A stretch of DNA of 64,000 bases, taken from the NCBI GenBank assembly GCA_022402465.1, contig JAKRSH010000044.1:1-64000 (forward strand), written 5' to 3'. The notes under the pieces are model-generated. The model saw only the letters and a list, made by a program, of their open reading frames with translations, had not been told where the DNA came from and searched no databases. Position 1 is the first letter of the stretch. Every line of letters starts with the position of its first letter. Positions 4,260-44,721 of the stretch are shown here, piece after piece. This stretch comes from Leptospiraceae bacterium (lineage in GTDB: Bacteria; Spirochaetota; Leptospiria; Leptospirales; Leptospiraceae). The translations under genes and the position numbers were made by a program.

Positions 4260-5636
4260 CTACCTACCTTTGATCCTGGATTTTTTCATAAATCCTTCGT
4301 AGTTTCTCATTAGTAGCTGAGCTTCGATTTGCTTTAAAGTTTCTAAAGCTACTCCTACCATAATCAATAGAGAAGTTCCTCCGAAAGTATACACAAGAGC
4401 TCCGCCCCCAGTATTGTTTCCAAGATTCAAGAACTTTATGATAAGATAGGGCGCAAGAGCAAGTCCAGCTAAAAATATAGCTCCAGGAAGAGTAATTCGG
4501 TTCAATACTTTTTCTATATACTCTTTGGTTGGGGTTCCTTGGCGAATTCCAGGAATAGATCCACCAAATTTCTTCAAATTATCAGAAAGTTCTTGGGGAT
4601 TGAATTGAATCGCAGTATAGAAATATGCAAAGAATACGATTAGAGCGGTGTAAATTAAATAATAAAAACCAGCGCGATACCAGATTTGTGAAAATGGGTT
4701 AAAAAAATCCATTACAACTGCCCAACCATTCCAACTTTGGAAGTTTGAGGAAAAATACTGAATAATTGTCTGGGGAAAAAGTATCAAGGATGAAGCAAAG
4801 ATAATGGGCATAACATTAGCACCATTCACTTTGAAAGGAATAGATTGGCTTTTTGCTTGAACCATTCTTCTTCCTACCATTTGCTTCCCATACTGCAAGG
4901 GTACTTTCCTTACACCTTGGGTGAGTATCACTGTAAGAGAAATAAGAACTACGAAGATAAGTAGTAGTATAAGAATCGATAATGCATCCGAAGTATCCGT
5001 AGTGAACATAGAAATCATAGCTTCTGGCATTCTTCCAATGATTCCTGCAAAGATAAGAAGGGAAATACCATTTCCAATCCCTCTTTCTGTGATTTGTTCA
5101 CCCATCCATATTAATAGAATAGTTCCCGTTGTTATCGATAAAAGTCCTAGAAAAAAGAAAAAAGGCTCCACAGATGGATTGATAAGTCCAGGATATTTAG
5201 CAGGAGCTAATTCAGTGCCCGTGGACCAAGATTTTGCAAGATGAAGGACGGCAAGTGACTGAACTGCACAAAGAATAATGGTTCCGTATTTGGTATACTG
5301 TTGTATCTTCTTTCTTCCCTCATCCCCCTCTTTCTGAAGCTTTTGTAGGGATGGAATTAAGACCATAACCAACTGCATAATGATAGAGGAAGAAATATAA
5401 GGCATGATTCCAAGTGCAAAAATGGAAAACTTTAAAAGGGCTCCACCAGCAAAAAGATCGACCATATTTAAGAAACCTTCTCCTGGATCTGAAGTAATTC
5501 CAGAAACAATTAAGGAATTGATACCAGGAATAGTAACATGAGTACCCATACGAAAGAGTAGAAGCATGAATAGGGTAAATAAAATTTTCCCTCTAAGTTC
5601 AGGAATCTTGAAAATATTCGCAATAGTACTCAACAA
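4260..5636 (-). CDS. secY: Protein translocase subunit SecY
   Basis: Channel subunit of the SecYEG translocon. About ten hydrophobic helices are visible across 458 residues, with family motifs [17 protein letters not shown] (helix 2), [13 protein letters not shown] and GQKQMVGRR-type loop [10 protein letters not shown]. The plug region follows IPGINS near residue 38. The partner SecE is encoded about 24 kb upstream in the same gene block. Confidence 0.98.
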
Positions 5637-40283: not shown

Positions 40284-40732
40284 AAGAAAAAATAGGGATC
40301 GCAAGTGATCATGGTGGTTTTGAATTAAAAGAAATCTTGAAAGAGGAATTAAAAAAACACTCTGAAACTATAGATTTGGGAACACATTCCCAGGAATCAG
40401 TTGACTACCCCCAAGTAATTGGAGCTGCCTGCCAGAGTCTCTTGCAAGGCAAAGTAGATAGGTTGGTAGTTTTATGTGGAACAGGAATCGGTGCATCTAT
40501 TATAGCCAATCGTTACCAAGGAATTCGAGCTGCACTCTGCCACGACGAGTTCACAGCTGAAATGTCACGTCGCCATAATAATTCCAATGTTTTAGTTTTA
40601 GGTGGAAGAATTTTAGGAAAGGATCTAGCTATACGTATTCTAGAAAAATGGTTGCATACAGAATTTGAAGGTGGCCGCCATGAGAAAAGAATCATCATGA
40701 TAGATGAAATTAGTAAGCCATCTTCGAAGTGA
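40280..40732 (+). CDS. rpiB: Ribose 5-phosphate isomerase B
   Basis: Interconverts ribose 5-phosphate and ribulose 5-phosphate in the pentose phosphate pathway. It starts near IGIASDHGGFELKE, has the active-site Cys in VVLCGTGIGASI, and then RAALCHDEFTAEMSRRHNNS. Length 150 is normal. Its end shares bases with the purine-rich ribosome binding region of the next gene. Confidence 0.96.
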   Translation: MKEKIGIASDHGGFELKEILKEELKKHSETIDLGTHSQESVDYPQVIGAACQSLLQGKVDRLVVLCGTGIGASIIANRYQGIRAALCHDEFTAEMSRRHNNSNVLVLGGRILGKDLAIRILEKWLHTEFEGGRHEKRIIMIDEISKPSSK

Positions 40733-40745
40733 AAAGGAAGCTCTT

Positions 40746-42422
40746 ATGAAAAAGGTTTTTTGTGCATTTATTTTCTTAGTTGTTTTAATAGGAACTAAGT
40801 ATTTAAGTTCAAGTCCATCAAATAAATTACTTCCTTTTGTGGATGAGAATCTTTCTTGGGATGATCTAAAATTAATAAATTTAAAAATAGAACAAGATAA
40901 TAAAAATCATAAAATCCTTTCATTGAATCCTAGAAGTATAGATTCCACCTTACTAACTTTAGATTTTGAAAATAAAAAAAGCCCAGGCAATTTAGACTCA
41001 GGTAATTATTTTCGAGGAAAGCAGTCTGCTAGATTCAATGGAAAATCAGATATTATAGAAATACCTAGGGGTAAATCGAGTCTATTTCTTGAACCAGAAA
41101 TCCGGGAGCCTTTCTTTATTTCTTTTTTCGTGAACCCATCCTCTCAATCAGGTTCAGCTATACTTTTGAATAAATCTATTTTCCGATCTGGCCAAGAATT
41201 TGGTTTCCGCTTAAGTCTAGAACAAAGTAAATTAGAACTTCGGATAGATAGAATGATACAAACTGAATCTAGTATTCTACTTTCTACTAAATTAAATTCC
41301 CAACATAGCATTCCACAGAGAAAGTGGTCCCATATTATTTTAGAATTTGCACCTGCTAAGAATTTGATTCTTCTCTATATCAATGGTCTTGAAACAGCTC
41401 GCTATGATGGACTAGCGATAGTTAAAGATCGAGTAACAGGATTTAGTTTTCATCCAGATGATACAACGCCCTTGTATCTTGGTAAAAATTTCTATGGAAA
41501 TATGGATGAATTTTTGATAGCTTCAGGAACACCGAATGCAAGCCATTTGTATGCAGAATATATGGAAGTAGACCTAAATCTTGATTCAAAATTTGTATCC
41601 CAAGCCTTGGGAATTGGATTATCCCCAGTTTACAAAAGCGATATTAGCCATGCCTATCTATCCAAATTTAGTTTGGATTCCAAACTGCCTAATAATTCCA
41701 TACTAGAAGTTTGGTTTCGATCTTCACTTTCTCCATTTGGAGCTTATGAATCTGAATACAAAAAAGGTCTTTCCTGGAAACGCCTTAAAGAAAATGAACT
41801 AGATGCTATTTGTAATTCTGAAACAGTAAAATCCGAAAGTTCAAATCCATGTTTCACGTATTACCAGTGGAAGTTTGTACTGCGTTCTGATCCCGATGGA
41901 TTTAATTCTCCCTCCGTTTCTAATTTCAAGTATAGAGTAAATCATAATCTTCCACCTAAGCAAATCACTGGATTGAAATTCCATGAAAGTGCCTCTAATC
42001 TGGATGAACCTAAAATCTGCATGACCTGGGTTGCAAGTGAGGAAGAAAATGTGTGGAATGGTGGAGGTTACATTTTGTATTATGGCTTCAAAGAAAAGGA
42101 AGTGGCAGGAACTATACACTACCATAATGCAAATAATAGAAAAAAAGATCTACTTCCAAGTGCTGAGAAATTCAATTTAAAGGATGATGCAAAATCGACT
42201 CGAGTGAGCATAATTTCATCTTGTGTTGATAATGGAATTTTACTTAAAAATGCAGAATCAATTGAACCTGAAAAAAATCTTCCATTCCTGAGACCAGGGA
42301 TAACAACTTATTTCTGGGTATCTGCTACAAATTCATTCTGGTCAGAGAACGGACCTGGTAAAGATCAAATAAGCCCTAAATCTAAACCTATTTCTGTTAC
42401 AATTCCAACGAAAGGTCAATAA
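40746..42422 (+). CDS. Exported LamG/concanavalin-like protein
   Basis: A protein of about 558 residues. A signal peptide or N-terminal anchor (MKKVFCAFIFLVVLIGTKYL) is followed by a LamG-like domain (about 70-270: ARFNGKSDIIEIPRG, HSIPQRKWSHIILEF, LYLGKNFYGNMDEFLI). The second half has fibronectin-like strands, including KICMTWVASEEENVWNGGG. AAAAGGAAG lies five bases before ATG 40746; an ATG 14 codons upstream lies inside rpiB. Likely surface or periplasmic. Its 3' end overlaps a convergent gene by 26 bases. Confidence 0.8.
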   Translation: MKKVFCAFIFLVVLIGTKYLSSSPSNKLLPFVDENLSWDDLKLINLKIEQDNKNHKILSLNPRSIDSTLLTLDFENKKSPGNLDSGNYFRGKQSARFNGKSDIIEIPRGKSSLFLEPEIREPFFISFFVNPSSQSGSAILLNKSIFRSGQEFGFRLSLEQSKLELRIDRMIQTESSILLSTKLNSQHSIPQRKWSHIILEFAPAKNLILLYINGLETARYDGLAIVKDRVTGFSFHPDDTTPLYLGKNFYGNMDEFLIASGTPNASHLYAEYMEVDLNLDSKFVSQALGIGLSPVYKSDISHAYLSKFSLDSKLPNNSILEVWFRSSLSPFGAYESEYKKGLSWKRLKENELDAICNSETVKSESSNPCFTYYQWKFVLRSDPDGFNSPSVSNFKYRVNHNLPPKQITGLKFHESASNLDEPKICMTWVASEEENVWNGGGYILYYGFKEKEVAGTIHYHNANNRKKDLLPSAEKFNLKDDAKSTRVSIISSCVDNGILLKNAESIEPEKNLPFLRPGITTYFWVSATNSFWSENGPGKDQISPKSKPISVTIPTKGQ

Positions 42423-42801
42423 CCTTCATCCATTTACTTGGTTTTGTTTGCCCTTTCCAAGTGATTAAGGAATCCATATTCTTATTGATTGCCACACAAA
42501 TCTCAATTCCCTCTAAACCCTCTGCTCCCAAGTCTTGGGAAATTTGAGAGTAGAGCTTTAGATCATCATTCGTCACAGGAAAAATTTCATCATATAGGAT
42601 TCCAGATTGATTTAGATATTCTTTCTGATCTTTTTCATTTCCAAATGTCTTTCCTTGGATGATTTCAAATATAGACAAGGCAGTAGAATATAATTTGTGA
42701 TTGTTCTGAATGTAAGACTCTAGCTTTTTATACAGAGCATTCGAGTCAGTGTTTGAGGAAATAAGGGTCTTCAATATTGATACAGAAATTAAATGTTTCA
42801 T
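42397..42801 (-). CDS. PIN-like protein with missing catalytic residues
   Basis: A 134-residue protein whose outline matches PIN-domain RNases of VapC type: N-terminal LISVSIL aligned with the usual LLDTNIL, ALSIFEIIQG aligned with the conserved Glu helix, and C-terminal KVIDL. The first catalytic Asp is Ser6 and the nearby Asn is Ser8, and the later acidic positions seem lost or changed (Glu100 at best). Nuclease activity is doubtful. It overlaps the upstream RHH gene by four bases (ATGA), the layout of a toxin-antitoxin pair. The family call rests on pattern, not alignment. Confidence 0.55.
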   Translation of the reverse strand: MKHLISVSILKTLISSNTDSNALYKKLESYIQNNHKLYSTALSIFEIIQGKTFGNEKDQKEYLNQSGILYDEIFPVTNDDLKLYSQISQDLGAEGLEGIEICVAINKNMDSLITWKGQTKPSKWMKVIDLSLEL

Positions 42802-43004
42802 AAGATTGAAGATTGTTTTCCTAAATTATAAATTTTGTGTAAGGCTCTGAGTTTATCTGCAACAGATTTCTGGGTTATTTCGTTTTGGACAGAAACACGA
42901 ACCAACTCGCCTACAGACATACCTCTTAGATTTGCGTTCGCTTTAAGCAGCATAAGTTCCTCATCAGAGAATAAAATTGTAAACCTTTTATCTACTTTAG
43001 ACAT
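42798..43004 (-). CDS. Ribbon-helix-helix antitoxin-like protein
   Basis: A 68-residue protein. A beta strand (KRFTILFSDEELMLLKANA) followed by the two-helix segment NLRGMSVGELVRVSVQNEI suggests a CopG/Mnt-type ribbon-helix-helix DNA-binding fold. A C-terminal helix would contact the partner protein. It lies 12 bases after a TPR gene and overlaps the PIN-like gene, which fits an antitoxin that represses its own promoter. Confidence 0.6.
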   Translation of the reverse strand: MSKVDKRFTILFSDEELMLLKANANLRGMSVGELVRVSVQNEITQKSVADKLRALHKIYNLGKQSSIL

Positions 43005-43016
43005 AAAATAGTTTGT

Positions 43017-43607
43017 TTAATCTTCCACATTGAGTTCTTTTTCTGCTTGGTAATACCTTCGCCAAGAATTTTGGGCATCTACTGCTTGGCCCATAGAATC
43101 ATAGATAGCACCTATGTTATAATATGCATCAGTGATGGTAAAATCTTTTTCTACGGATTTTCGAAAGAGAGTAATTGCCTTTTCTTTATTTCCTGAGAAC
43201 CATTCGGCTGTAGCCCAGTGAAAATACCACTTGCCTAAACTAGGATCTCTAGGTCTTACACTTTCAAAGACTTGAATATTTTCCTCAAATAATTTTGCAC
43301 TATTTCCATAATTCCTCTTGATTGTTTTCCATTTTTCCGCCCTGGTATAATTATCTTCCTCACGGGATGGTATGGGCAGATCTTCTTTCATGAGTAGTGC
43401 CTGAGCATAAACTAATCTCATATAAATTTCAGCTGGCTGAATTTCTAAGTACTTTTCTAAATAAGGAATAGACTCAGAATATCTTCCTTGCTTGAATAGT
43501 TCATAAGTCTTAGCTCTCAATTCTTTTGTTAGGCGACCTTTTTCAGATGAATACAAAGGTGCTACAATTAAAAAGATGCTAAATATATAGAAGAATATTT
43601 TCGCCAT
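43017..43607 (-). CDS. Exported TPR protein
   Basis: A 196-residue protein with a signal peptide (MAKIFFYIFSIFLIVAPLYS) and at least three TPR helix pairs (YSESIPYLEKYLEIQP; GKWYFHWATAEWFSGNKEKAITLF; DAYYNIGAIYDSMGQAVDA). TPR proteins act as protein-protein scaffolds, so a periplasmic scaffold role is likely. Its start overlaps the end of the upstream gene by 29 bases. Partner unknown. Confidence 0.8.
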   Translation of the reverse strand: MAKIFFYIFSIFLIVAPLYSSEKGRLTKELRAKTYELFKQGRYSESIPYLEKYLEIQPAEIYMRLVYAQALLMKEDLPIPSREEDNYTRAEKWKTIKRNYGNSAKLFEENIQVFESVRPRDPSLGKWYFHWATAEWFSGNKEKAITLFRKSVEKDFTITDAYYNIGAIYDSMGQAVDAQNSWRRYYQAEKELNVED

Positions 43608-44721
43608 ATGTAGGGTATATCTTTGTATTAATTTTTACATTTAGACTATCCAATTCTGCTTGGTCGACTATGAAGTCTGAATGATCTTTATCTCCAATTA
43701 ACAAAAATGTATCTATATTTAACTCCATTAACTTTTCCCTAGAGTTTAAAGTTTTCATTAATTTACTGATAAATTGTCTTTTTATAAAATAAATATTTTC
43801 TGTTTCAAGATATTTTTCAATTTTAATAACATGGGAATAAGAAGTATGGAATCTCTCTCCAACAAATGATTTGAACAAGTAAATACTATGTGTTAACATA
43901 TCATTTGTTACAGCCTTACTATTGACTCTTTTATCTCTATAATTTGCTAAGCCAGGAATTAAATTATTTAATTTAGAATGAATCATTTGAATCCATCTTG
44001 GGGAAATCATATTCGTATCAATCTCGTCTTCTTCATTTGTTTTCTTTAATAAATCATGTTTAGGCACAAATGCGACAAGACAGGCATCTATACCTGGTTG
44101 ATTTAAAAAGAAAAATAGAATCTTTCCATAAAGGTTAATAGATTCTAAGGAAAATTTCTTAGAAAAAAACGGATCCATTATTAGATTAGGAGTGATTTCT
44201 AATTCAAAAAAATTATCTTCTCCTAATTTTACAAATGGATCATTCTTAAGAAATAAAAAGTTAGTTCGAGTAACAGAATCCAGACCTGTAGACATTTCAC
44301 AAAAGTAAGCTTGCGAATCGTAAGATAAGAAATACCAACCAAAATGCTCAACACCGATACGATTCAATAAAAAACTACTGTATTTCATAATGGATGATTC
44401 TTGAATCGTAGAAGCATCACTGTACAAGGACAAAAGAGTCTTGAACTCTTCTTCTTTAGATGGTTCAACTAGATCGGAATAAATGCTTCTCATCCTGGAT
44501 GGAATTGATTTTGAAGAAGAATACTGCTCAATAGAAGATTGCTCTTGAACAATTTGTACTGCATCTGAACTTGTAGGGCTAGTTACCTTTTGAACTAAGT
44601 CCTTGAGTTCTGGATTGAATATGGATGACCTTTTTGCTTCTAATTCTGGGTCTACCTTAGAATCTTGAAAGAATTCACGGATTCTCTTAGGAGGAATTAT
44701 TTGAAAAGAAGTGGGTTTCAT
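43579..44721 (-). CDS. Protein of unknown function
   Basis: A 380-residue soluble protein with no signal peptide or membrane helix. It has a Ser-rich, probably disordered segment at about residues 48-80, then a mixed alpha-beta region with the GAF-like pattern GWYFLSYDSQAYFCEMSTGL near 130. The C-terminal third is charged and helical. I do not recognise a family. It is the first gene of a minus-strand group with the overlapping TPR gene and is divergent from the metalloenzyme gene. Confidence 0.6.
   Translation of the reverse strand: MKPTSFQIIPPKRIREFFQDSKVDPELEAKRSSIFNPELKDLVQKVTSPTSSDAVQIVQEQSSIEQYSSSKSIPSRMRSIYSDLVEPSKEEEFKTLLSLYSDASTIQESSIMKYSSFLLNRIGVEHFGWYFLSYDSQAYFCEMSTGLDSVTRTNFLFLKNDPFVKLGEDNFFELEITPNLIMDPFFSKKFSLESINLYGKILFFFLNQPGIDACLVAFVPKHDLLKKTNEEDEIDTNMISPRWIQMIHSKLNNLIPGLANYRDKRVNSKAVTNDMLTHSIYLFKSFVGERFHTSYSHVIKIEKYLETENIYFIKRQFISKLMKTLNSREKLMELNIDTFLLIGDKDHSDFIVDQAELDSLNVKINTKIYPTYGENILLYI

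Follow-up and report, generated by a model that had tools for sequence, protein, structure and literature searches.

Does an RHH/PIN gene pair still work as a toxin-antitoxin module when its PIN-like protein has lost acidic residues of the metal site, or has the second protein been kept for something else? The question is raised by two overlapping genes in the window, by which we mean the whole 64,000-nucleotide stretch of Leptospiraceae DNA analyzed here, whose contig is part of a 3.99-Mb genome (G000). An earlier note, made from the sequence alone, had likened the two genes to a toxin-antitoxin module and had suggested that the second protein is either an inactivated toxin retained for its regulatory pairing or a PIN relative with another activity. 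The pair and its neighbors are as follows.

42798-43004, minus strand: RHH protein gene (68 aa), an open reading frame and the first gene of the pair
42397-42801, minus strand: PIN-like protein gene (134 aa), an open reading frame and the second gene of the pair
43017-43607, minus strand: TPR protein gene (196 aa), with TPR Pfam matches above the cut-off
43579-44721, minus strand: gene for a protein of unknown function (380 aa), an open reading frame overlapping the TPR gene
40704-42422, plus strand: laminin-G-like protein gene (572 aa), with a Laminin_G_3 match of 30.9 bits, above the cut-off

The list of open reading frames places both genes of the pair on the minus strand where the earlier note had put them, with a shared ATGA of 4 nt at 42798-42801. 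On the same strand, a gap of 12 nt separates the RHH gene from the TPR gene that precedes it, and the 380-aa gene is probably the operon head for the pair; its product has no Pfam match above the cut-off, and an equivalent gene lies upstream in the related loci L036, L037, L038, and L040. The laminin-G-like gene is convergent, its 3' end overlapping the PIN-like gene by 26 nt (42397-42422).

Structure prediction indicates that the second protein of the pair is a PIN-fold protein, as the earlier note had supposed, with VapC and FitB among its best structural matches. An AlphaFold2 model made from six relatives (the window protein and those of L036-L040) reached a pLDDT of 83.2 and a pTM of 0.81, and its top Foldseek match was the VapC protein of Rickettsia felis VapBC2 (3zvk; E value of 2.0e-5, TM score of 0.75), which also headed the VIA-align matches (Z 15.1, rmsd 2.7, 127 residues). 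VapC structures match the model at Z 13-15 and FitB (2bsq) at Z 13.4; the PDB matches also include RohQ (9c5w), which carries a cyclodehydratase annotation, at Z 10.9, and SMG5 and Chp1-Tas3 are weaker matches at Z 7.6 and 8.1, respectively. At the sequence level, the window protein has no PIN match in a Pfam search, its gene is not among the four PF01850 matches in the window genome, and an HMM of the 48 control PINs described below scores it at 19.6 bits. Other profile matches of the window protein, including CutA1 and acyl carrier protein, were sub-threshold and were taken as chance, and a search of solved-structure sequences with the A4 profile was uninformative, returning one VapC at an E value of 0.13 amid designed helical proteins and others.

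We searched 30 genomes of the order with a protein alignment. A match turned up in 27, and one of these, in G003, was dropped as a different PIN-type gene without an RHH gene (E value of 0.0081); second matches in G005, G006, G007, and G014 were likewise left out of the count. The remaining 26 relatives occur in 7 of 8 genomes of the window's family, f1, and in 19 of 22 genomes of a second family, f2. One f2 relative does match Pfam PIN (30.8 bits; cut-off of 23.6). The genomes returned were MAGs only, and the related loci that carry public names come from Leptospiraceae or Leptospirales MAGs. A separate PIN-like match in G007 (contig C213, L033) has six in-frame stops and is a decayed PIN gene.

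Alignment with PIN domains confirmed that Ser6 and Ser8 of the window protein stand in motif I in place of the PIN Asp and Asn. The further statement that acids are lost at the later motifs as well holds for motif IV, which is non-acidic (Lys116), but not for motif II, where the Glu is kept (Glu46), or for motif III, where the Asp has become another acid (Glu97); neither Glu46 nor Glu97 is conserved in the closest relatives. The canonical acids of motifs I to III are complete in none of the 26 relatives versus all 48 control PINs. Of these controls, 40 are PF01850 matches from the same order, taken from a list ranked best first and hence biased toward intact sites; the other 8 have other sources. 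Motif I is Asp in 13 relatives, Glu in 1, and non-acidic in 12; motif II carries an acid in 6; motif III is Glu in 3 and Asp in none; and motif IV is Asp in 3. Some relatives retain single acids, and 7 of the 26 have none of the four. When shifts of a few positions were allowed, two relatives (G016 and G019) had acids near all four places. In G022, three of the four canonical places are acidic. A phylum search gave a match in 42 of 296 genomes, and the matches outside the order were ordinary PINs, with Asp at motifs I and III in all 13 different sequences inspected and Asn at motif II in 5 of the 10 sequences of one inspected subset. The idea that the window protein is an active toxin altered by local mutation is rejected, because not one of the 26 relatives retains acids I to III. 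It is well supported by these alignments that the metal site is broken throughout the family of relatives and not through local decay.

If the nuclease site is gone, has the partner been kept? The 68-aa first protein matches RHH-class models, weakly and below every curated cut-off (NikA-like, 25.8 bits against 27; RelB antitoxin, 23.1 against 50; RHH_1, 12.8 against 20.5), and Foldseek returned VapB, ParG, FitA, and CopG as weak matches with E values of 0.37 and above. With an RHH profile, the gene was found in 25 of the 30 genomes, always with its best match at the pair's place; of the 26 genomes that have the PIN-like gene, 25 have the RHH gene next to it, and G003, G010, G026, and G029 have neither the PIN-like gene nor an RHH match. 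The one unpaired case is G004, whose genome is 75% complete and has no RHH match. At this locus (L011/L039), the PIN-like gene is preceded at a distance of 5 nt not by the RHH gene but by one whose product resembles a sulfite/nitrite reductase. Matches to the RHH profile outside the order, in the wider class, were weak (E values of 2.3e-7 or worse, 48 genomes). A profile built from the six f1 RHH proteins alone, chosen to avoid circularity, picked out the pair's RHH protein as its best match in 19 of the 19 f2 genomes with the pair (E values from 3.2e-9 to 0.016); the corresponding profile of f1 PIN-like proteins recovered 9 of the 19 f2 relatives. In G012 (L090, open reading frame 4423-5457, reverse complement), the RHH and PIN-like domains are joined in one open frame by a linker of about 50 residues. 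Six f1 genomes have both genes, and in 5 of them the two overlap by 4 nt. The RHH proteins are 62-68 aa long in f1 and mostly 72-90 aa in f2, and the short f1 form could mean that a tail for blocking the active site has become superfluous. A search of 19 f2 regions preceding the RHH gene and of the window's operon head revealed no conserved palindrome or operator. Because no palindrome was found and the f1 RHH gene sits inside an operon, self-regulation at a promoter of its own is not evident.

The surroundings of the pair are conserved within each family. The PIN-like gene adjoins the laminin-G-like gene in all seven f1 loci (the window, L010, L011, L012, L014, L015, and L020), with convergent 3' overlaps of 26-51 nt, and at 6 of these 7 loci the RHH gene has the TPR gene as its neighbor. 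Two more Leptospirales MAGs (L041, 5001-6854, and L042) have the laminin-G-like gene without an adjoining RHH/PIN-like pair. In f2 (L072-L090), on layouts complete for the loci other than L080-L082, most pairs are oriented divergently from an alpha/beta hydrolase gene, beyond which serA often lies. Naming the hydrolase, serA, and acyl-CoA dehydrogenase genes from sequence, without a profile, we find the hydrolase within about 5 kb of the pair at 17 of the 19 loci, serA at 11, and the acyl-CoA dehydrogenase gene at 6; the hydrolase gene adjoins the pair except in G016 and G019, where the distance is about 4 kb. A 'WWNG' protein gene is a neighbor in 8 of 19. The hydrolase/serA region of f2 is possibly a target region of the RHH protein. 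Four PIN-like gene pairs (at least 130 codons, more than 50% identity, finite dS) gave dN/dS values of 0.20-0.26, which are rough because dS exceeds 1.4 but show that close relatives are under purifying selection. Together with its presence in 25 of the 30 genomes, this selection takes the recurrence of the pair beyond chance. Recent horizontal arrival was considered and rejected: the GC content of the pair is similar to that of its neighbors, and tblastn searches of 72,556 plasmid and 50,697 phage records returned nothing. The pair is nevertheless dispensable, since two high-quality genomes, G003 and G010, lack both genes.

The different neighbors in f1 and f2 allow a reading on which each family acquired its pair separately and the acids were lost convergently, a rival account of origin and not of mechanism. 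In a PIN tree built from all columns, the 26 relatives lie on one side of a single branch (support, 93/70); without the catalytic columns, the tree is little resolved and needs three changes, not one, from which it follows that the all-column grouping leans partly on shared losses of acids in the sequences. Those three changes speak for separate acquisitions. Against them, a single clade is not rejected (AU test, p 0.346), the f1 profile matches the f2 profile at an E value of 2.7e-16 and the controls at only 1.5e-8, the f1-only RHH profile found its counterpart in every f2 genome with the pair, and the full-column tree has a single split. We consider two acquisitions decidedly unlikely.

Acid loss combined with a retained fold, a retained partner, and one fusion is what would be expected if the PIN-like protein had been kept for a structural role. 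The disarmament of the protein and the retention of the pair are well supported, and the suggestion in the earlier note of an inactivated toxin kept for regulatory pairing fits the near-constant presence of the RHH gene and the fused protein. Our preferred reading, to which we give a probability of roughly 0.55, is that the pair is an ancient VapBC/FitAB-like module whose toxin lost its nuclease activity and was retained to partner the RHH protein in a structural or co-regulatory role. An RHH/PIN module would have entered, or become fixed in, the ancestor of the order; the PIN protein would then have lost its metal-binding acids and with them its RNase activity, while its fold and its pairing with the RHH protein stayed. 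The PIN proteins of VapBC and FitAB bind the tail of their antitoxins and assist RHH dimers in holding DNA, and the DNA-bound complexes 3zvk and 2bsq are among the structural matches of our model. By analogy, the beta-ribbon of the RHH dimer would bind DNA, and the C-terminal part of the RHH protein would be held by the PIN-like protein, which would link RHH dimers into a larger DNA-binding assembly and so survive as a structural co-regulator that may set operator affinity or cooperativity for chromosomal genes. We infer the regulatory role of the pair, and likewise complex formation, DNA binding, the absence of nuclease activity, and the target genes. Points against a co-regulator are that no operator was found, that G004 has no RHH match and G003 and G010 have no pair, that the RHH fold match is weak, and that some relatives keep single acids.

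These same absences, with the high divergence between genera, are what a functionless toxin-antitoxin remnant drifting toward loss would produce, but open frames persist in 26 genomes, the dN/dS values lie well below 1 in close pairs, the sequence remains compatible with the fold, and the pairing is retained across the order; we disfavor this explanation as very improbable. The acids that remain could instead belong to a toxin-antitoxin module that is still active, either cleaving RNA with relocated or fewer acids or being toxic through RNA binding without cleavage. The window protein retains Glu46, Glu97, and also Glu100, the shifted acids of G016 and G019 and the three canonical ones of G022 could serve in this way, and non-enzymatic toxicity is raised as speculation in a passage of PMC2701414 (Makarova, Wolf, and Koonin, 2009). 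That no relative has acids I to III complete, and that seven have none of the four, tells against it; moreover, the VapC variant D7A, a single Asp-to-Ala change, serves as an inactive control in a passage of PMC8923223, and the motif I site so altered is non-acidic in 12 of the 26 relatives. A single-copy, vertically inherited, syntenic pair is also unlike a mobile addiction module, and an active toxin here seems to us quite improbable.

A further alternative takes its evidence from the residue three positions after motif III (III+3), which is His, Glu, or Asp in 22 of the 26 relatives (10 His, 9 Glu, and 3 Asp) and acidic in all seven f1 relatives, as against no acidic residue and 3 His in the 48 controls. 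In the window protein this residue is Glu100, which the model places one helical turn past motif III, on the same helix (95-106) as Glu97. It may be part of a pocket that has been rebuilt, or it may touch the RHH protein. If it marks a pocket, the PIN fold might have been re-purposed for a small ligand, a metal, or another enzymatic activity and might signal to the RHH protein, making the pair a two-protein ligand-responsive regulator; the match to RohQ and the metabolic genes that adjoin the f2 pair point the same way. The residue varies between His and acid, it is Tyr, Gln, or Cys in 4 of the 26, and no invariant column was seen in an alignment of 25 relatives, all of which weighs against a re-purposed pocket, so that we regard it as possible but doubtful. 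Its fuller form is a two-protein regulator, inherited vertically across the order, whose former toxin would act as a sensor, with the emptied metal site rebuilt around the III+3 His, Glu, or Asp and controlling DNA binding by the RHH protein; this we think unlikely.

Whether inactivated-toxin modules are debris or working regulators has been a matter of speculation, and it is as speculation that passages of PMC2701414 put forward the inactivation of some PIN toxins and the exaptation of solo toxins and antitoxins. Passages of a survey of VapC in Leptospira (PMC6406750) stress the conservation of three or four acids and describe no disarmed pair, and we found no report of a disarmed RHH/PIN-like pair or family in the open-access PMC literature. 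The family described here is a defined one that occurs once per genome, includes one natural fusion, has long been retained, and can be set against controls, which makes the question directly testable. The family also illustrates that annotating the PIN member of an RHH/PIN pair as a toxin is unsafe unless the acids are checked. It differs from the solo or exapted homologues treated in those passages of PMC2701414 in that both genes stay paired and the family is defined across an order, with a control set.

Three kinds of known system invite comparison. The eukaryotic pseudo-PIN domains of SMG5 and Chp1-Tas3 share the PIN-type fold and are inactive, but they have no RHH partner, and their sequences are not closely related to those described here. 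FitAB of Neisseria gonorrhoeae (2bsq, 2h1c) is a DNA-binding regulator complex of an RHH protein and a PIN partner, to which the RHH-like and PIN-like proteins of the present pair correspond; FitB retains its PIN acids, whereas the present PIN-like family does not have them complete. VapBC with an RHH antitoxin, as in R. felis VapBC2, provides the parallel for the gene order, the ATGA overlap, the putative DNA-binding-type protein encoded first, and the PIN fold encoded second. Unlike VapBC, the relatives described here never have complete acids I to III, and the pair is order-wide, single-copy, and syntenic, lying in f1 within a longer operon; its occurrence in 26 of 30 genomes (as judged by the PIN-like gene) and the lack of any match in plasmids or phages likewise differ from the mobile, patchy spread that is common, although not obligatory, for VapBC. 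The anatomy is VapBC-like, and it is the acids and the distribution that set the pair apart from toxin-antitoxin systems.
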